From Terriglobia bacterium (GTDB lineage Bacteria; Acidobacteriota; Terriglobia; Bryobacterales; Bryobacteraceae), in the NCBI GenBank assembly GCA_020073305.1, contig JAIQFK010000005.1, forward strand, positions 186,001 to 250,000: a stretch of DNA of 64,000 nucleotides, read 5' to 3'. Shown one piece after another: positions 1 to 50,627 of this stretch (position 1 is its first letter; every line of letters begins with the position of its first letter). The notes under the pieces are model-generated. The model worked only from the letters and a program-made list of their open reading frames with translations. It ran no database searches and had not been told where the DNA came from. The position numbers and the translations under genes were made by a program.

Positions 1-996
1 CAGCTTCTTCACATCCGGATTCAGCAGCTTTTGAACCTCCGGCTTATCCAAGTCCGCTTTGGTGATTACCCGCGCGCTCAGGTCGATGCGCTTGGGCGGG
101 GTCTTGCCGTTTAGCTTGTCGACCAGCGTCTGCACGGCCTGGTAACCGATGCGGTAGGGGTCCTGGGCCACCAGCGCGTCGATGGTGCCACCTTTTAAGT
201 CTTCGATCATCCCCTCGGCGGCATCGAAGGCGACGAATTTGATTTTGCCCGACAGGCCTCGCGATTTGAGGGCCAGCGCAGTGCCGATCGAGCTGGGCTC
301 GGTGGAGCCGAAGATTCCGTCGAGATTGGGATGCGCCGTCAGGATATTTTCCGCCGCGGCCATGGCTTTGGAGCGGTCCGACATGCCGTATTGCTTCTGC
401 ACAATCTGAATCTTCGGGAACTCCTTGGCCATGGCATCTTCGAAACCGCGCTCGCGTTCCATGGTGGAAAAACTGCCCGGAACGTGCAGCACCATGGCAA
501 TCGATCCCTTGCCGTGAACGAGCTCGGCCAGCTTGCGCGCGGCCATCTGCCCGGCTTCGTAGTTGTTGGTAGCGACGAAACTCATGTAGTTCGTCGAATC
601 GACGCCCGAGTCGAACACGGTCACGGGAATGCCTTCCCTCGCGGCGCGATCGAGCGAGCCATCGAGTGCCGTGCGGTCCTGGGCCGCCAGCGCCAGGCCG
701 TCCACGTGGCGCGCGATCATGGAATCGACAATCTCGATTTGGCGGCTGAAATCGATCTCGGTGGCGGGTCCGTTCCAAAGGACCTCCACGCCGAGATCGC
801 GCCCCGCGGCCATGGCGCCCGCCTCGATGGAAACCCAGAACAGGTGCGAAGTCGCTTTTGGCACCACGCCGATTACCTTCCTTCGGCTGGCGTTGCAGCC
901 TAGGAGAGTGAGAAGGAGAAGACAGACAAGGAGACGGGGAGATGGGGGGACGGGGAGACAGGGAGACGACCGAATATTATGGAATCGTCCAGTCAT
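1..996 (-). CDS. Sugar ABC transporter substrate-binding lipoprotein (C-terminal end outside window)
   Basis: Reading right to left, this frame stays open from an ATG at 996 to the window edge and encodes a periplasmic sugar-binding protein of the Peripla_BP_4/RbsB type. A hydrophobic stretch ends in a lipobox (LLGC, Cys34), so the mature protein should be a lipid-anchored receptor feeding an ABC sugar importer. The mature part has the expected two-lobe pattern: GVVPKAT, then ALAAQD, VTVFDSGVDS, GSIAMV, DGIFGSTEPS and KFVAFDAAEG. No permease or ATPase is visible, because the gene runs off the window. The SDR gene upstream on the same strand suggests a sugar-catabolic operon. The start is odd: ATG 996 lies inside a repeat-flanked insertion, and no in-frame ATG, GTG or TTG exists between it and the lipobox. 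Confidence 0.85.
   Translation of the reverse strand, partial: MTGRFHNIRSSPCLPVPPSPRLLVCLLLLTLLGCNASRRKVIGVVPKATSHLFWVSIEAGAMAAGRDLGVEVLWNGPATEIDFSRQIEIVDSMIARHVDGLALAAQDRTALDGSLDRAAREGIPVTVFDSGVDSTNYMSFVATNNYEAGQMAARKLAELVHGKGSIAMVLHVPGSFSTMERERGFEDAMAKEFPKIQIVQKQYGMSDRSKAMAAAENILTAHPNLDGIFGSTEPSSIGTALALKSRGLSGKIKFVAFDAAEGMIEDLKGGTIDALVAQDPYRIGYQAVQTLVDKLNGKTPPKRIDLSARVITKADLDKPEVQKLLNPDVKKL
941..968 (+). repeat. G-rich inverted repeat, left copy flanking the four-helix-bundle gene
   Basis: The plus strand reads as GGGGAGAC-type units here. It matches the reverse complement of 1371-1398 at 25 of 28 positions by eye. G-rich units of the same kind continue leftward to about 929. The two copies sit as inverted repeats around the four-helix-bundle gene, like terminal repeats of a small cassette. 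This copy also encodes part of the signal peptide of the sugar-binding lipoprotein. Confidence 0.7.
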
Positions 997-1354
997 TGGG
1001 AGTTGACCGCATGCGGACAATCTTACCGACGATATTGTTGTACTGGGCATCCAGATCTTCGACCTCAGGTTTCTTAAGGTAGCCACAGCGGTCCGCGAAT
1101 TCGAGCCAGACTCGCGTTTCTTCGGCTTCACTTTCTGCATCGCTCAATTTGCTGATGAAATGCGCTCTGTAACGCCGTTTTCGCCAAGCTTCGGCAATGT
1201 TGGCGCAGACGGATCGAGAGGAACGTCGAATCTGATCTACCATGGAGTACCTCTCTTCGACGGGAAACGTCTTCGTCAGCTCAAAGATCCGCATCGCCGA
1301 CTCCATAGCGATCTGACAAACCTGCAGCTCTTTGTAGGTGCTGATCTTCGGCAT
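977..1354 (-). CDS. Four-helix bundle protein (23S rRNA intervening-sequence protein family)
   Basis: A protein of about 125 residues of the TIGR02436 four-helix-bundle family, named after proteins encoded in 23S rRNA intervening sequences and related to the Avd accessory protein of diversity-generating retroelements. Recognisable features are the opening YKELQVCQIAMESAMRIFEL, then MVDQIRRSSRSVCANIAEA, FISKLSDAESEAEETRVWLE and a C-terminal helix ending IVGKIVRM. The biochemical role of the family is not established. I chose ATG 1354 rather than the longer reading to 1417, because the extra residues are only translation of the G-rich repeat. A GGGAGA from that repeat could act as a ribosome binding site. 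The 3' end overlaps the lipoprotein start by 20 bases. No reverse transcriptase or template repeat is present nearby. Confidence 0.85.
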   Translation of the reverse strand: MPKISTYKELQVCQIAMESAMRIFELTKTFPVEERYSMVDQIRRSSRSVCANIAEAWRKRRYRAHFISKLSDAESEAEETRVWLEFADRCGYLKKPEVEDLDAQYNNIVGKIVRMRSTPNDWTIP

Positions 1355-22940: not shown

Positions 22941-24698
22941 CTACTCTACCTTTTTTAGATCGCGCACGGCGCGCACTTCGCCGCCAAAAACCTCGCGAAA
23001 ACGCTGCACTTCGGGGTTGGCCAGCGCGCGCTGCGACGCGTCATCCTTTTTCCGATCAGCCACCGCGCCCGTCTCGGCCGGCGCCACTTCTCGGGCCGCT
23101 ACCTTGATCTTGAACGGCTGCGAGCTGATGCGCTGCACGGCTTTAGATATATCTTCAGCACGCATGGCCAGCATAAACTCTTTCGGCGTCACAAACTCCA
23201 GCACATTGCCCGCCTCGGTCACACGGGAATGCTCCAACGCGTCGGCCGTAAACGGCATCTCGAGTTCCATCAAAGCCGCATGCAGCTTTTCGCGCCACTC
23301 GATGGCGCCGGCCGGTGCTGCCGCCGGCTCCGGAGCGAGCGCCGTTGCGCCAATGGATTGTGGCTCCGGGCGGGTGGCTTTCTTCGCCCGGTCCAACTCG
23401 AAAGGCGACGGCCGCGAGGGACTTGGGTTTTGGGACGTCGTTGGCCTTGGCGCCGTGTCGCCGCCGGAGACCCGTGCTTCACCCGGGCGCCCCCGCGTCG
23501 CGGCCGAAGGCCCGTGCTCCATCCGGGCGTCAGCTTTTGTCTCCCCGTCTCCGCGTCTCCCCGTCTCCCCATCAGCTTTCAGCCCCGCCAGCGCTTCCTC
23601 AATAGACGTCAACCTCCCCGCTTGCACCAGCTTCACCAACCCGATCTCCAGGTGAAAACGCGGCTGCAGTGAGAATTGCAAATCCTTGAACAAATCGAGC
23701 GAAAGCTGCAAGTACCGCGTCAGATCCTCTTCCGAGAACGACGCCGACATCTCCACAAAGCGCGCCCGCTCGTTTGCGGACGCCGCAATCAACCGCGTAT
23801 CCGATCCCGCGATCCGGGACACCAGCAGGTTGCGGAAGTACCGCGCCAGCTCGCGGCTGAAGTGCTGCAGGTTATGTCCGTTGCGCTCGAGTTCGTCCAC
23901 CAGCGTGAGCATGCGCCGCGAGTCCGACGATGCGAGCGCTTGCGTTACGGCTTCGAGCGCCTCCATCGAAAAGGCGCCGAGCAGCGCCCGCACTTCCTTG
24001 GCATCCAGCTTGATTCCGCAGCAGGCAATGGCCTGGTCGAGCGCGGAAAGCGAGTCGCGGATGCTTCCCTCCCCCGCCTGCGCCAGAACCGACAGGACTT
24101 CGGCATCGGCTTCGATGCCCTCCTGCCGGCAGATCCACTCCATGCGCGTCACCACCTCGTCGAAATCCACCGACCGGAAGCTGAAATGCTGGCAGCGGGA
24201 GGCGATCGTCGCGGGAATTTTGTGCGCCTCCGTCGTGCACAGGATGAAAATCACCCAGGACGGAGGTTCCTCAATGGTTTTGAGCAGCGCGTTGAAGGCT
24301 TCGCTCGTGATCTGGTGCGCCTCGTCGATGATGAAGACCTTGTAGCGGTCGCGGACGGGACGATAGCGCACGTTCTCGCGCAGCTCGCGCATTTCGTTGA
24401 TGCCGCGATTCGAAGCCGCGTCGATCTCAATCACATCCGGAGCATTGCCCTGCGCGATCTCGATGCAGCTTGCGCAGGTGCCGTCCGGCGTTGCGGTGGG
24501 ACCTTGCACGCAGTTCACGCAGCGCGCCAGAATCCGGGCTATTGTGGTTTTCCCTGTCCCGCGCTGGCCGGAAAAAATGTAGCCGTGGGCGATGCGTTGC
24601 TGGGCGATGGCGTTTTCGAGCGTCGTCTTGACGTGCTCCTGGCTCACCACGTCGGCAAACGTTTGGGGCCGGTATTTACGCGCGATAACCTGATACAT
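22941..24698 (-). CDS. dnaX: DNA polymerase III subunits gamma/tau
   Basis: A 585-residue clamp-loader ATPase. The Walker A loop is at 44-51 (GQRGTGKT), zinc-binding cysteines are at 60, 63, 75 and 78, and the DEAH Walker B is at 125-128. The AAA+ and collar domains extend to about 370. A C-terminal tau-like domain follows a low-complexity linker at about 375-440. That linker is encoded by G-rich GGGGAGAC-type units (GETGRRGDGETKAD) and by two near-identical GGAGCACGGG-type segments, all in frame, which looks like repeat insertion. The SRP RNA gene lies just upstream. Confidence 0.96.
   Translation of the reverse strand: MYQVIARKYRPQTFADVVSQEHVKTTLENAIAQQRIAHGYIFSGQRGTGKTTIARILARCVNCVQGPTATPDGTCASCIEIAQGNAPDVIEIDAASNRGINEMRELRENVRYRPVRDRYKVFIIDEAHQITSEAFNALLKTIEEPPSWVIFILCTTEAHKIPATIASRCQHFSFRSVDFDEVVTRMEWICRQEGIEADAEVLSVLAQAGEGSIRDSLSALDQAIACCGIKLDAKEVRALLGAFSMEALEAVTQALASSDSRRMLTLVDELERNGHNLQHFSRELARYFRNLLVSRIAGSDTRLIAASANERARFVEMSASFSEEDLTRYLQLSLDLFKDLQFSLQPRFHLEIGLVKLVQAGRLTSIEEALAGLKADGETGRRGDGETKADARMEHGPSAATRGRPGEARVSGGDTAPRPTTSQNPSPSRPSPFELDRAKKATRPEPQSIGATALAPEPAAAPAGAIEWREKLHAALMELEMPFTADALEHSRVTEAGNVLEFVTPKEFMLAMRAEDISKAVQRISSQPFKIKVAAREVAPAETGAVADRKKDDASQRALANPEVQRFREVFGGEVRAVRDLKKVE
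23539..23573 (-). repeat. G-rich GGGGAGAC units inside the dnaX linker
   Basis: On the coding (minus) strand this reads as repeated GGGGAGAC/GCGGAGAC units, similar to the inverted repeats near 941 and 1371. Its length keeps the dnaX reading frame and encodes GETGRRGDGET. Two direct copies of a GCACGGG-containing segment (near 23465-23485 and 23508-23530) lie close by in the same linker. Confidence 0.65.
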
Positions 24699-48577: not shown

Positions 48578-48688
48578 CTTGTAGCGCAGGTGTACGGCGG
48601 GGTTTGCCGGAGACCTGCGGCTTTTCGTACCTGAACGGCAAAAGGCCGCAGGTCCCCGCCAGAATCGGGCGTGGGCCTGCGCTACAAG
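48578..48688. repeat. Large imperfect hairpin (REP/MITE-like element)
   Basis: The outer arms CTTGTAGCGCAGG (48578-48590) and CCTGCGCTACAAG (48676-48688) are perfect inverted copies, and an inner pair GACCTGCGGCTTTT (48612-48625) with AAAAGGCCGCAGGTC (48640-48654) pairs with one bulge. The whole element is 111 bases. It lies in the 349-base stretch between the permease and the YkgJ-type gene and is probably a non-autonomous mobile or regulatory repeat. The rest of that stretch shows nothing recognisable. Confidence 0.75.
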
Positions 48689-48784
48689 TTCACACGCACG
48701 GGCGTCCGTTGCGCCGCAGATTCCGATTCCGCCAAAAAGCACCAGCAATTCGGCGACCGCACGCGCAAGTTATCCTGGTACGAG

Positions 48785-49288
48785 ATGATTCAGGATCTGG
48801 TGCAGATCCGGCTGCTGGGCGAAAAGAAGCGGCCGGAGAACGAGCGCTTTCGGCGTTATCTGAAGGCGCACGATCACTCCGAACGCCGGATGCGGCGCAT
48901 CGCCGAAGAAATCGAAGAAGAGATCGATTGCACGGTTTGCGCCAACTGCTGCCGCGTGGCCACGGTGAGGGTGAGCGATCGCGATATCGACCGGCTCACT
49001 CGGCATCTCGGCATTACGCGCGCGGAGTTTCTGGCCCAGTACATCACCTTGAGCGACGAAGAAGGCCGCATTTTACACCGCAAAGAGAGTGGATGCGTCT
49101 TTCTGGACGGCAACACCTGCACGGTCTACGAGAACCGGCCGGATACCTGCGAGCGCTTCCCGCACTTGGTGCGCGGCAACGGTTCGATTGCGAGCCGCAT
49201 GTGGCAGTTCATCGACCGTGCCTGCTACTGCCCCATTGTGTACAACGCGCTCGAGGCGTTCAAAGCGGAATCGAAATTTACGAGATAG
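48785..49288 (+). CDS. YkgJ-family cysteine cluster protein
   Basis: A 167-residue protein of the CxxCxxCC family (zinc- or iron-chelating). The cluster is CTVCANCC, followed by CVFLDGNTCTVYENRPDTCERFP and a late C-x-C (ACYC). An N-terminal charged helical part (GEKKRPENERFRRYLKAH) precedes it. The family function is not settled; it may bind Zn or an Fe-S cluster. I start at ATG 48785; the reading is open to a GTG at 48671, but that part runs into the right arm of the hairpin and has no clear domain. Downstream begins the transposase-remnant region. Confidence 0.8.
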   Translation: MIQDLVQIRLLGEKKRPENERFRRYLKAHDHSERRMRRIAEEIEEEIDCTVCANCCRVATVRVSDRDIDRLTRHLGITRAEFLAQYITLSDEEGRILHRKESGCVFLDGNTCTVYENRPDTCERFPHLVRGNGSIASRMWQFIDRACYCPIVYNALEAFKAESKFTR

Positions 49289-49362
49289 GTGGAAAACGCC
49301 CCGGGTTTTCCTCCAAGATGATCTGGTGGACAACCCGGGACAGACCGCCCTTTACTACTCCG

Positions 49363-49479
49363 TCATCGCGAAGTCGAATGACGGTTGGCATCGGAATCGA
49401 AAACCACGCGCCGCGAATTTCCGCGCTGCGTCACATGATGCGCCGCAGCTTCGGCAATCACGGGCGCCATCCTGGCCAT
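49363..49479 (-). pseudogene. REP-associated tyrosine transposase (RAYT), N-terminal remnant
   Basis: Only 38 codons remain. They read as the typical RAYT opening: MARMAPVI, then HHVTQRGN and RRVVF. Full proteins are about 150-300 residues and contain HxH and catalytic Tyr motifs further on; none of that can be read here, and the frame stops after STSR. This is the conserved beginning of an IS200/IS605-like Y1 transposase of the TnpA-REP type, truncated at its 3' end. The GGAAACCC array lies 65 bases upstream of its ATG. The rest of the 49289-50003 stretch has no intact gene. Confidence 0.7.
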
Positions 49480-49543
49480 AGAATGAGATAGTCGATGGGA
49501 AAGAGGATTGTCTCGCAAAACGGGCGGTCTATCCCTAGCAGGC

Positions 49544-49715
49544 CGGAAACCCCGGAAACCCCGGAAACCCGGAAACCCCGGAAACCCCCGGAAACCCGCG
49601 GAAACCCGGAAACCCGGAGGAAACCCGCGGAAACCCGGGGAAACCCGGGGGAAACCCGGGGGGGAAACCCGGGGGGGGGAAACCCGGGGGGGGGAAACCC
49701 GGGGGGGGGAAACCC
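49544..49715 (+). repeat. Tandem array of GGAAACCC-type units
   Basis: About 15 units of GGAAACCC with a variable number of added C or G between them. The G run lengthens from left to right, reaching GGGGGGGG, which looks like expansion by slippage. Translated, it gives GFPPPGFPP-like runs, but these ORFs are low-complexity artefacts. The array stands upstream of the transposase remnant on the minus strand and adjoins a 16-base inverted repeat and an inverted right array. Confidence 0.8.
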
Positions 49716-49777
49716 GGGACAGTACACTCAAATCGGATTTCTGAAAGCGGATGATGGTGTATTGAGTGTACTGTCCC
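49716..49777. repeat. Hairpin between the two arrays, 16-base perfect stem
   Basis: GGGACAGTACACTCAA (49716-49731) and TTGAGTGTACTGTCCC (49762-49777) are perfect inverted copies with a loop of 30 bases. This GGGACAGTACACT motif recurs at the ends of REP-type elements tied to RAYT transposases, and here its two copies mark the centre of a larger inverted structure formed by the left and right arrays. Confidence 0.8.
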
Positions 49778-49822
49778 GCGTTTCCCCCGCGTTTCCCCCG
49801 CGCGTTTCCCCCGCGTTTCCCC
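49778..49822 (-). repeat. Inverted short array of GGGGGAAACGCG units
   Basis: Four units read GCGTTTCCCCC on the plus strand, the reverse complement of a GGGGGAAACGC unit. Together with the left array they form a large palindromic structure around the hairpin. The right arm is much shorter than the left, consistent with the left arm having expanded. Confidence 0.75.
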
Positions 49823-50003
49823 TCGGCGTCGTGATGCCCGGCCGGGCCATCGTGGGGGGAGTGGAGTGGCCGGTGGGGTGGAAATGAGGGAGTCTGTAGC
49901 GCTGTGCAACCGCTTCCTTTGGTTGCGGCTCAATTTCGGCAGGCTTTGTCTGTCCATCCCGGCCTTGCGCCGTTCCGAAGCATTCAGTTAGCATAGCCGC
50001 GAG

Positions 50004-50627
50004 ATGAAAAATTGCGCTGTGCTCTTCTTCCTGGCCCTCCTCCCGCTGTTCGCGGCTGACGAAGGCTTTACCTCTCTGTTCAACGGCAAGGATCTCACCG
50101 GCTGGAAAGTCAACGAGAATGTCGACACCTTTTCCGTCAAAGACGGTGCCATTGTCTCGCACGGACCGCGCAGCCATTGCTTTTACGTGGGCGATTTCCA
50201 CGACCACACGTTCAAGGACTTCGAACTGAAGGTCGACGTCATGACGCTCCCCGGCGCCAACGGCGGCGTCTACATCCAAACCGCATTTCAGGACCGAGGT
50301 TGGCCCGGCAAGGGATTTGAGGTGCAGGTGAATAACACCTTTGTGGGCGATCCACGGAGAACCGCCAGCCTGTATGAAGTGCAAGACAACGCGGGCGAGG
50401 TCGCCAAAGACAACCAGTGGTTCACCGAGGATATCATCGCCAAAGGCGACACCATCATCGTTAAAGTAGATGGCAAGCAGGTGGTGAATTGGACGCAGCC
50501 CGCGAACTGGCAAGGCACCCAAGACTTCTCGAACCGCCGCATTGGCGCGGGCACCATCGCGCTTCAGGGCCATGATCGCGGCAGCACGGTGTATTACAAG
50601 AACATTCGCATCAAGCTGCTTGACTAG
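50004..50627 (+). CDS. DUF1080 (3-keto-disaccharide hydrolase-like) protein
   Basis: A 207-residue exported protein (signal peptide NCAVLFFLALLPLFAAD) made of one concanavalin-like jelly-roll domain. The family hallmark FTSLFNGKDLTGWKV opens it, followed by GAIVSHG, DFELKVDVMTLPGANGGVYIQT, GFEVQVNNT and GTIALQGHD. DUF1080 proteins include 3-keto-glucoside and 3-keto-disaccharide hydrolases; binding of glucans is also reported. It is 10 bases from a GH32 enzyme on the same strand, so the two likely degrade the same oligosaccharide. Confidence 0.9.
   Translation: MKNCAVLFFLALLPLFAADEGFTSLFNGKDLTGWKVNENVDTFSVKDGAIVSHGPRSHCFYVGDFHDHTFKDFELKVDVMTLPGANGGVYIQTAFQDRGWPGKGFEVQVNNTFVGDPRRTASLYEVQDNAGEVAKDNQWFTEDIIAKGDTIIVKVDGKQVVNWTQPANWQGTQDFSNRRIGAGTIALQGHDRGSTVYYKNIRIKLLD

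Follow-up and report, generated by a model that had tools for sequence, protein, structure and literature searches.

Site-private tandem arrays at the ends of a dispersed hairpin family in a Terriglobia (Bryobacteraceae) genome

The ends of a family of hairpins dispersed through this Terriglobia genome carry short tandem arrays, the unit of which, as comparison of the copies shows, is the end of the element joined to letters that are private to each site. The effect is pronounced in this genome; elsewhere it is patchy. The elements themselves belong to the known TIRtron type, and the site-private reiteration of their ends is what seems to be new. The analysis started from one locus in the window, by which we mean the whole stretch of 64,000 nucleotides analysed (C22:186001-250000, in a 6.98-Mb genome of 51 contigs).

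Results

From left to right, the window locus consists of a CxxCxxCC gene, a RAYT remnant with its own terminal repeats, the left array, the hairpin, the right array and a 3-keto-disaccharide-hydrolase gene (Table 1). The original observation was partly borne out: the 38-codon RAYT start lies on the minus strand, the array of about 15 units holds 16 GGAAACCC copies (17 in the whole window), the 16-base stem is perfect (17 bp with one extra pair), and four inverted GCGTTTCC units follow past the stem. The G runs do grow towards the stem, the longest per unit being 9, 9, 9, 7, 5, 4 and then 2 from the stem outwards, with rank correlations with order of -0.88 for the G run and -0.87 for unit length. 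The proposed palindrome of about 280 bases was not recovered; in the predicted fold, only about 49661-49822 (~160 bp) forms pairs that span the centre, and the outer units of the left array are predicted to pair with one another. Compared with shuffles, the DNA fold gave a z of -6.45 for 279 nt and of -8.03 for the 91-nt core. Overlapping triple-GGAAACCC matches numbered 14 here and 2 elsewhere in the genome, with 0 for the reversed pattern; the window array is far beyond chance. The 144-bp copy that begins where the right array stops corresponds to the final portion of a TonB-dependent-receptor gene plus the sequence that follows it.

Table 1. Features of the hairpin locus and its surroundings, in window coordinates
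Feature	Position	Strand	Remark
Neighbouring gene, CxxCxxCC putative metal-chelating protein	48671..49288	+	outside element
Terminal repeat of RAYT remnant, far side, GGGACAGACCGCCCTTT	49337..49353	+	other family than hairpin; like repeat adjoins intact homologue
RAYT remnant, 38 codons	49363..49479	-	similarity to intact homologue ends after ~codon 33
Terminal repeat of RAYT remnant, gene-start side, GGGATAGACCGCCCGTT	49519..49535	-	
Left array, 16 GGAAACCC copies, units 8-15 bp	49545..49715	+	three units nearest to hairpin identical (GGGGGGGGGAAACCC)
Left arm of hairpin, GGGACAGTACACTCAA	49716..49731	+	matches gene-start end of C21 RAYT element
Loop, 30 nt	49732..49761	+	identical in copies on C5 and C37 (two)
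Right arm of hairpin, TTGAGTGTACTGTCCC	49762..49777	+	perfect complement to left arm
Right array, 4 GCGTTTCC units	49778..49822	+	
144-bp copy, 94% identical to C3:173702-173845	49821..49964	+	starts where right array stops
Neighbouring gene, 3-keto-disaccharide hydrolase domain	50004..50627	+	outside element

Two other readings of the window array were tried and rejected. As coding sequence, it has several open frames, in which the unit is stop-free, and a weak collagen-like match (E 0.11) was all that Pfam returned; as a known RNA, it gave six Rfam matches with E values up to 0.1, all of them to microRNA models and far under the gathering scores.

The array had been attributed to the neighbouring RAYT gene, an assignment that did not hold, as the terminal repeat of the remnant is of a different, GGGACAGACCGCCC type. 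Nor is the array an extension of the remnant's own end, since it starts beyond the gene-start-side repeat. The intact homologue of the remnant is found at L110, in another species of the same genus (59% identity over the remnant), and has a GGGGACAGACCGCCC terminal repeat; the remnant itself has neither the H-x-H nor the Tyr motif. Growth of the array had further been tied to decay of this transposase, but family arrays are present with or without a nearby RAYT gene. Among the nine exact hairpins, just one (C39, at 1.7 kb) lies within 80 kb of any of the seven Y1 matches in the genome, and growth therefore needs no locally decayed transposase. From the proposal of slippage expansion after transposase loss we retain slippage as the favoured process and the involvement of a RAYT, although this is another RAYT, encoded on contig C21.

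The last 12 nt of the right arm (GTGTACTGTCCC) have 25 matches in the genome, and the reversed control has none. Both exact arms occur at nine sites, on C5, C6, C7, C22 (twice), C27, C37 (twice) and C39, with array units that differ from site to site and loops that fall into a few subfamilies, and an identical 62-nt core is shared by the window, the C5 copy and the two copies on C37. A tenth, degenerate hairpin on C45 (L048) is without an array. The hairpin foot reads GGGAC/GTCCC. The RAYT gene on C21 (L005:237-950) is intact, encodes 237 aa (PF01797, E 2.1e-8) and is preceded by an end of the hairpin family. Its NHIHL and RYIETNP segments, which we take to be the catalytic residues, align with relatives, the H-x-H and tyrosine motifs being kept. 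Terminal inverted repeats stand on both sides of the gene (GGGACAGTACACTCAA and AATTGAGTGTACTG), the AATTGAGTGTACTG side being cut by another insertion. Because the hairpin at L035 matches the C21 element at either end (the gene-start end over the first 39 nt of the hairpin, with 3 mismatches, and the opposite end of the element at 17/17 nt), we read the hairpins as internally deleted, MITE-like, non-autonomous copies of a TIRtron (62 bp plus ~7 nt per side).

An IS with the end GGTGCAGTCC was seen to adjoin hairpin or terminal-repeat remnants at L024:238, L032:239, L005:215 and L006:971 (AGTACACTCAA, ATACTGTCCC, AGGCTGTCCC). A fifth GGTGCAGTCC match, at the other end of the L006 copy (inside which lies an rve-domain fragment), adjoins no such remnant. 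This IS may target hairpin or terminal-repeat ends.

At least two short units were present at 19 of 24 tested family ends in the genome itself, or 19/25 if one counts the end at L027, which had been left out and shows no array by eye. Relatives had at least two units at 15 of 38 tested ends (15/55 with 17 further ends counted as misses), and shuffled flanks did so in 85 of 3100 cases (2.7%). Ends devoid of an array thus amounted to 5/24 in this genome and 23/38 in relatives. The two ends of one hairpin are non-independent in these counts, as are the two ends at L033, which look onto a single array. A second, independent score was taken as the best self-alignment at a lag of 6-20 within the first 60 nt, for which the pooled 99% control level was 9.5; it was exceeded by 17/24 own ends and 5/55 other ends. 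With own-genome controls alone the 99% level rose to 16.4, which 12/24 own ends passed. The number of own ends over threshold, each out of 24, was 17 at 0 nt, 5 at 40, 1 at 80, 3 at 120, 2 at 200, 2 at 300 and 1 at 400, so that the tandem signal sits at the hairpin foot and fades outwards. Family ends in G057 (11), G067 (2) and G021 (2) stayed under the threshold.

In a screen of the window and 21 own-genome loci for hairpins with stems of at least 11 bp, 7/10 family hairpins had an array. None of the seven non-family hairpins in the same screen had an array of its own, some of these being inside genes and one having a neighbour's array within 60 nt. Throughout 864 kb of the genome (the window plus 40 stretches of 20 kb), arrays with a score of at least 50 were found four times outside ORFs of at least 150 aa and 16 times inside such ORFs, the right array of the window being masked by a chance ORF. 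The four comprise the window array, one at L319 (GCTGTCCC foot, no hairpin detected), one beside an S23 gene, and one at L332, in a palindrome without the family foot. The last of these (L332:3847-3913) has (CACCTAACACCTGG)2 units and their inverted partner 6-10 nt away, and no family terminal repeat. The S23 (23S-rRNA-intervening-sequence) protein gene (window 983-1354, minus strand; PF05635, E 8.8e-32) is located between inverted GGAGACGG/GTCTCCCC arrays at 924-968 and 1362-1399, and a third GTCTCCCC array occurs at 23539-23570; gene and arrays together look like another mobile unit with array ends.

Comparison of the four copies with the identical 62-nt hairpin showed that the first 7-8 nt outside it are common, and that the letters farther out differ from copy to copy and recur from unit to unit of an array; among them are GCAA, GGTGGC and a G run on one side, and TTC, TGGTTC and CCCC on the other. 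Over 34 arrays, the similarity of the letters beyond the 7-nt core was 0.65 within ends and 0.34 between ends (0/2000 permutations). At the tRNA-Pro site, the outermost units (ATAGGGCGAAACC) equal unique flank plus end and pass inwards into (AAACCC)n, and TCTTCCCCTCC is repeated on the other side. The inner private letters at L028 and to the left of the C5 copy are unlike the adjoining flank. Unit lengths range from 6 to 18, and units include from 0 to 9 nt that match the stem. Stem-matching stretches of 5-9 nt were seen in 7/89 unit junctions, with varying depth; at L045, and partly at L133, the match may stem from the unit itself. The L133 units shorten outwards (13, 10, 8 and 6 nt). For the 12 arrays with at least four units, the nearer units were more alike in seven and the farther ones in four, with one tie; an order in which the nearest units are the newest is clear in the window and is not general (7/12).

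The site orthologous to L035 in the same-genus genome G001 (G001:C698) has 2 bp between the homologous segments, as against 367 bp of repeat elements here. G001 also lacks a second repeat element at this place, the whole intergene being absent, and the flanks of the family, where a target-site duplication would stand, are overwritten by arrays. A ~90-bp repeat at L035:1344-1436 (C22, ~156.6 kb), with 90-92% copies on C9, C21 and C34, stands directly before the array. For L039, no whole empty site was found among the matches listed, which were mainly tRNA and other hairpin copies, with one 79% match in G002.

The suggested search for arrays beside RAYT genes found them at some loci in this genome and its relatives, with no clear enrichment over 45 loci (6 own and 39 from relatives, one each): array density was 0.27-0.32/kb within 500 bp and 0.10-0.29 elsewhere. 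An array lies within 500 bp at 5/6 own RAYT loci; arrays are close by on C3, C22, C39 and C45, and there is none on C41. A seventh own locus, on C51 at a contig end, was outside the test. The loci of relatives had arrays at 6/39, of which four were read as outside the gene (L176, L177, L181, L185). For contrast, 15 IS200-like loci had three arrays within 500 bp (one at L215 and two at L226).

A second terminal-repeat family of the same genome (GGACGGTCTCGTCC) has, by reading, reiterated ends at L275, L281, L283 and L287 and lacks them at L279, L280 and the C1:75.8-kb copy. By reading also, units of the TACGTTTCCTCC type accompany the same-genus RAYT L110. The same-genus genomes G001 and G002 have no GTGTACTGTCCC match, and one pattern searched in viral contigs matched nowhere. 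Exact double family hairpins occur on 18 contigs of four named Acidobacteria MAGs, including Candidatus Sulfopaludibacter and a Bryobacterales genome. In JACQZT the copies are mostly clean, in CAITIX both have a five-unit array on one side, and RAYT loci with other ends in G065, G026 and G037 have 3-5 reiterated units. In three loci of relatives (L128, L130 and L135) one hairpin flank is an inverted copy of the other (AGCAGG, CTACTACGC, and the whole contig end in L135), perhaps by template switching or assembly.

SbcD attacks hairpins. No sbcD match was found in this genome (G000), G001, G004, CAMAVI, CAITIX, SHUD or the array-poor JACQZT, drafts that may be incomplete; G065, which has an array beside a RAYT gene, gave a full match. 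The mutS gene is present in G000. No clean host factor emerges from these matches.

Discussion

We consider it rather probable that the units arise in place, when DNA synthesis halts at the foot of the hairpin and the new strand slips backwards. The hairpin would have been inserted first, and the short tandem arrays would have grown at its ends afterwards. When DNA synthesis meets the folded hairpin, it would stall either at the foot or some few nucleotides into the stem; the nascent strand would then realign on the flank one unit (6-18 nt) farther back, and resumed copying would add a further piece of element end plus local flank, the direction of growth likewise being a proposal. Slippage is favoured because the anchoring at the foot, the site-private units, the variable junction depth and the serial shortening all fit it, and the window, where the longest and identical units are nearest to the hairpin, was counted in its favour. 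Polymerase pausing at the base of a hairpin, with misalignment of the new strand on direct repeats, is known, both in vitro and in vivo, as a route to deletions (PMC4134008); the events in the part of that work used here are deletions across the hairpin, in contrast to the repeated addition outside it that we envisage. A hairpin alone may not suffice, given the seven other hairpins without an array of their own, which are a small set. Also counted against slippage are the inner letters at L028 and to the left of C5 that do not match the flank, the ends in G057, G067 and G021 that stay under the threshold, the lack of GTGTACTGTCCC matches in the two same-genus genomes, and the lack of a clean host factor.

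Those array-free hairpins, together with a newest-nearest order in only 7/12 arrays, make the transposase a serious rival as the source of the arrays, although we judge this origin fairly unlikely. The RAYT/TIRYT enzyme would nick near the foot in the manner of HUH proteins, and repeated rejoining or restart of synthesis would leave the units as a by-product of transposition. Consistent with this are the arrays at the ends of more than one RAYT-bearing terminal-repeat family (by reading) and at 0/7 other hairpins, the motifs kept in the C21 RAYT, and L030, where GATTTCGTCGTCCC comprises a full unit of its sister L024 and the beginning of the following one, as though an array had been cut internally. 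A single cut site accords poorly with the varying amount of stem in the units and with their spread of lengths, and arrays would be expected to cluster near the gene more clearly than they do over the 45 RAYT loci. Maintenance by selection, with the array as a multiplied, iteron-like recognition or cleavage site for the transposase or a host protein, seems very improbable to us. The letters that directly follow the stem on its outside, a TTT included, do recur over subfamilies and species; beyond them, every site has unit letters of its own, the TTT core is missing on the right of L039 (TCTTCCCCTCC), and many ends in this genome and in relatives have no array at all. Hardly credible is an assembly or sequencing artefact of a palindrome that is hard to read. 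G9 runs beside a strong hairpin, and the mirrored flanks of L135 at a contig end, are of the kind that would produce one, but differing units are found at many sites of one assembly and also in CAMAVI, CAITIX, JACQZT, G001 and G004. Unit counts may still be off.

TIRtrons, or TIRYTs, are RAYT-like Y1 transposase genes between terminal inverted repeats, which are also dispersed alone and some of which have GGGGWSAS; an Acidobacteria group is named among them (Di Nocera et al., 2013; PMC3733652). The C21 element resembles them in its Y1 gene with H-x-H/Tyr motifs, its inverted repeats on both sides and the dispersed copies of its repeats. At the motif, L110 reads GGGGACAG; CGGGACAG, the version in the C21 family and in the window, agrees at 7/8 positions. 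The arrangements described for TIRtrons in the portion of that paper available to us are dimers or clusters of whole repeats, whereas here arrays of short end plus private flank stand at single ends. With REPINs the family shares two inverted repeats that form one hairpin (in the predicted fold), a tie to RAYT genes and clusters that include flanking sequence; in the REPIN clusters, as far as that source describes them, the whole REPIN is repeated (PMC3116915), unlike the 6-18 nt junction piece here, which leaves the hairpin uncopied. The GTAG or CGTC foot tetranucleotide of REPINs and GTAG REPs is absent, the foot being GGGAC. Class 3 TnpA proteins are likewise acidobacterial Y1 relatives, the flanking structures of which can be numerous (~600 in Solibacter usitatus); the foot given for them, in the text consulted, is CnGA (PMC6006769). 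Numerous short repeats are counted in the paper on the Solibacter genome, which, in the part seen, does not tie them to such ends (PMC3174227). A literature search of mainly open-access work, with few subscription papers covered, yielded no recognised description of site-private reiterated ends.

The family presents one mobile hairpin at many sites, each with a small satellite drawn partly from its own flank, and thus offers natural starting points of tandem arrays. This makes testable the birth of tandem arrays from unique DNA, as well as the effect of hairpin-forming mobile repeats on replication in bacteria without evident SbcD, and it extends the little-studied TIRtrons. A more general statement is put forward tentatively and is unlikely to hold: that the element ends are lengthened by in-place junction units through the action of the RAYT-like HUH transposases themselves, or through a replication fault peculiar to the hairpins of these enzymes. 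If true, it would mean that in Bryobacterales end-capping at the DNA level keeps turning unique flanks into satellites, some of them even telomere-like, as (AAACCC)n is.
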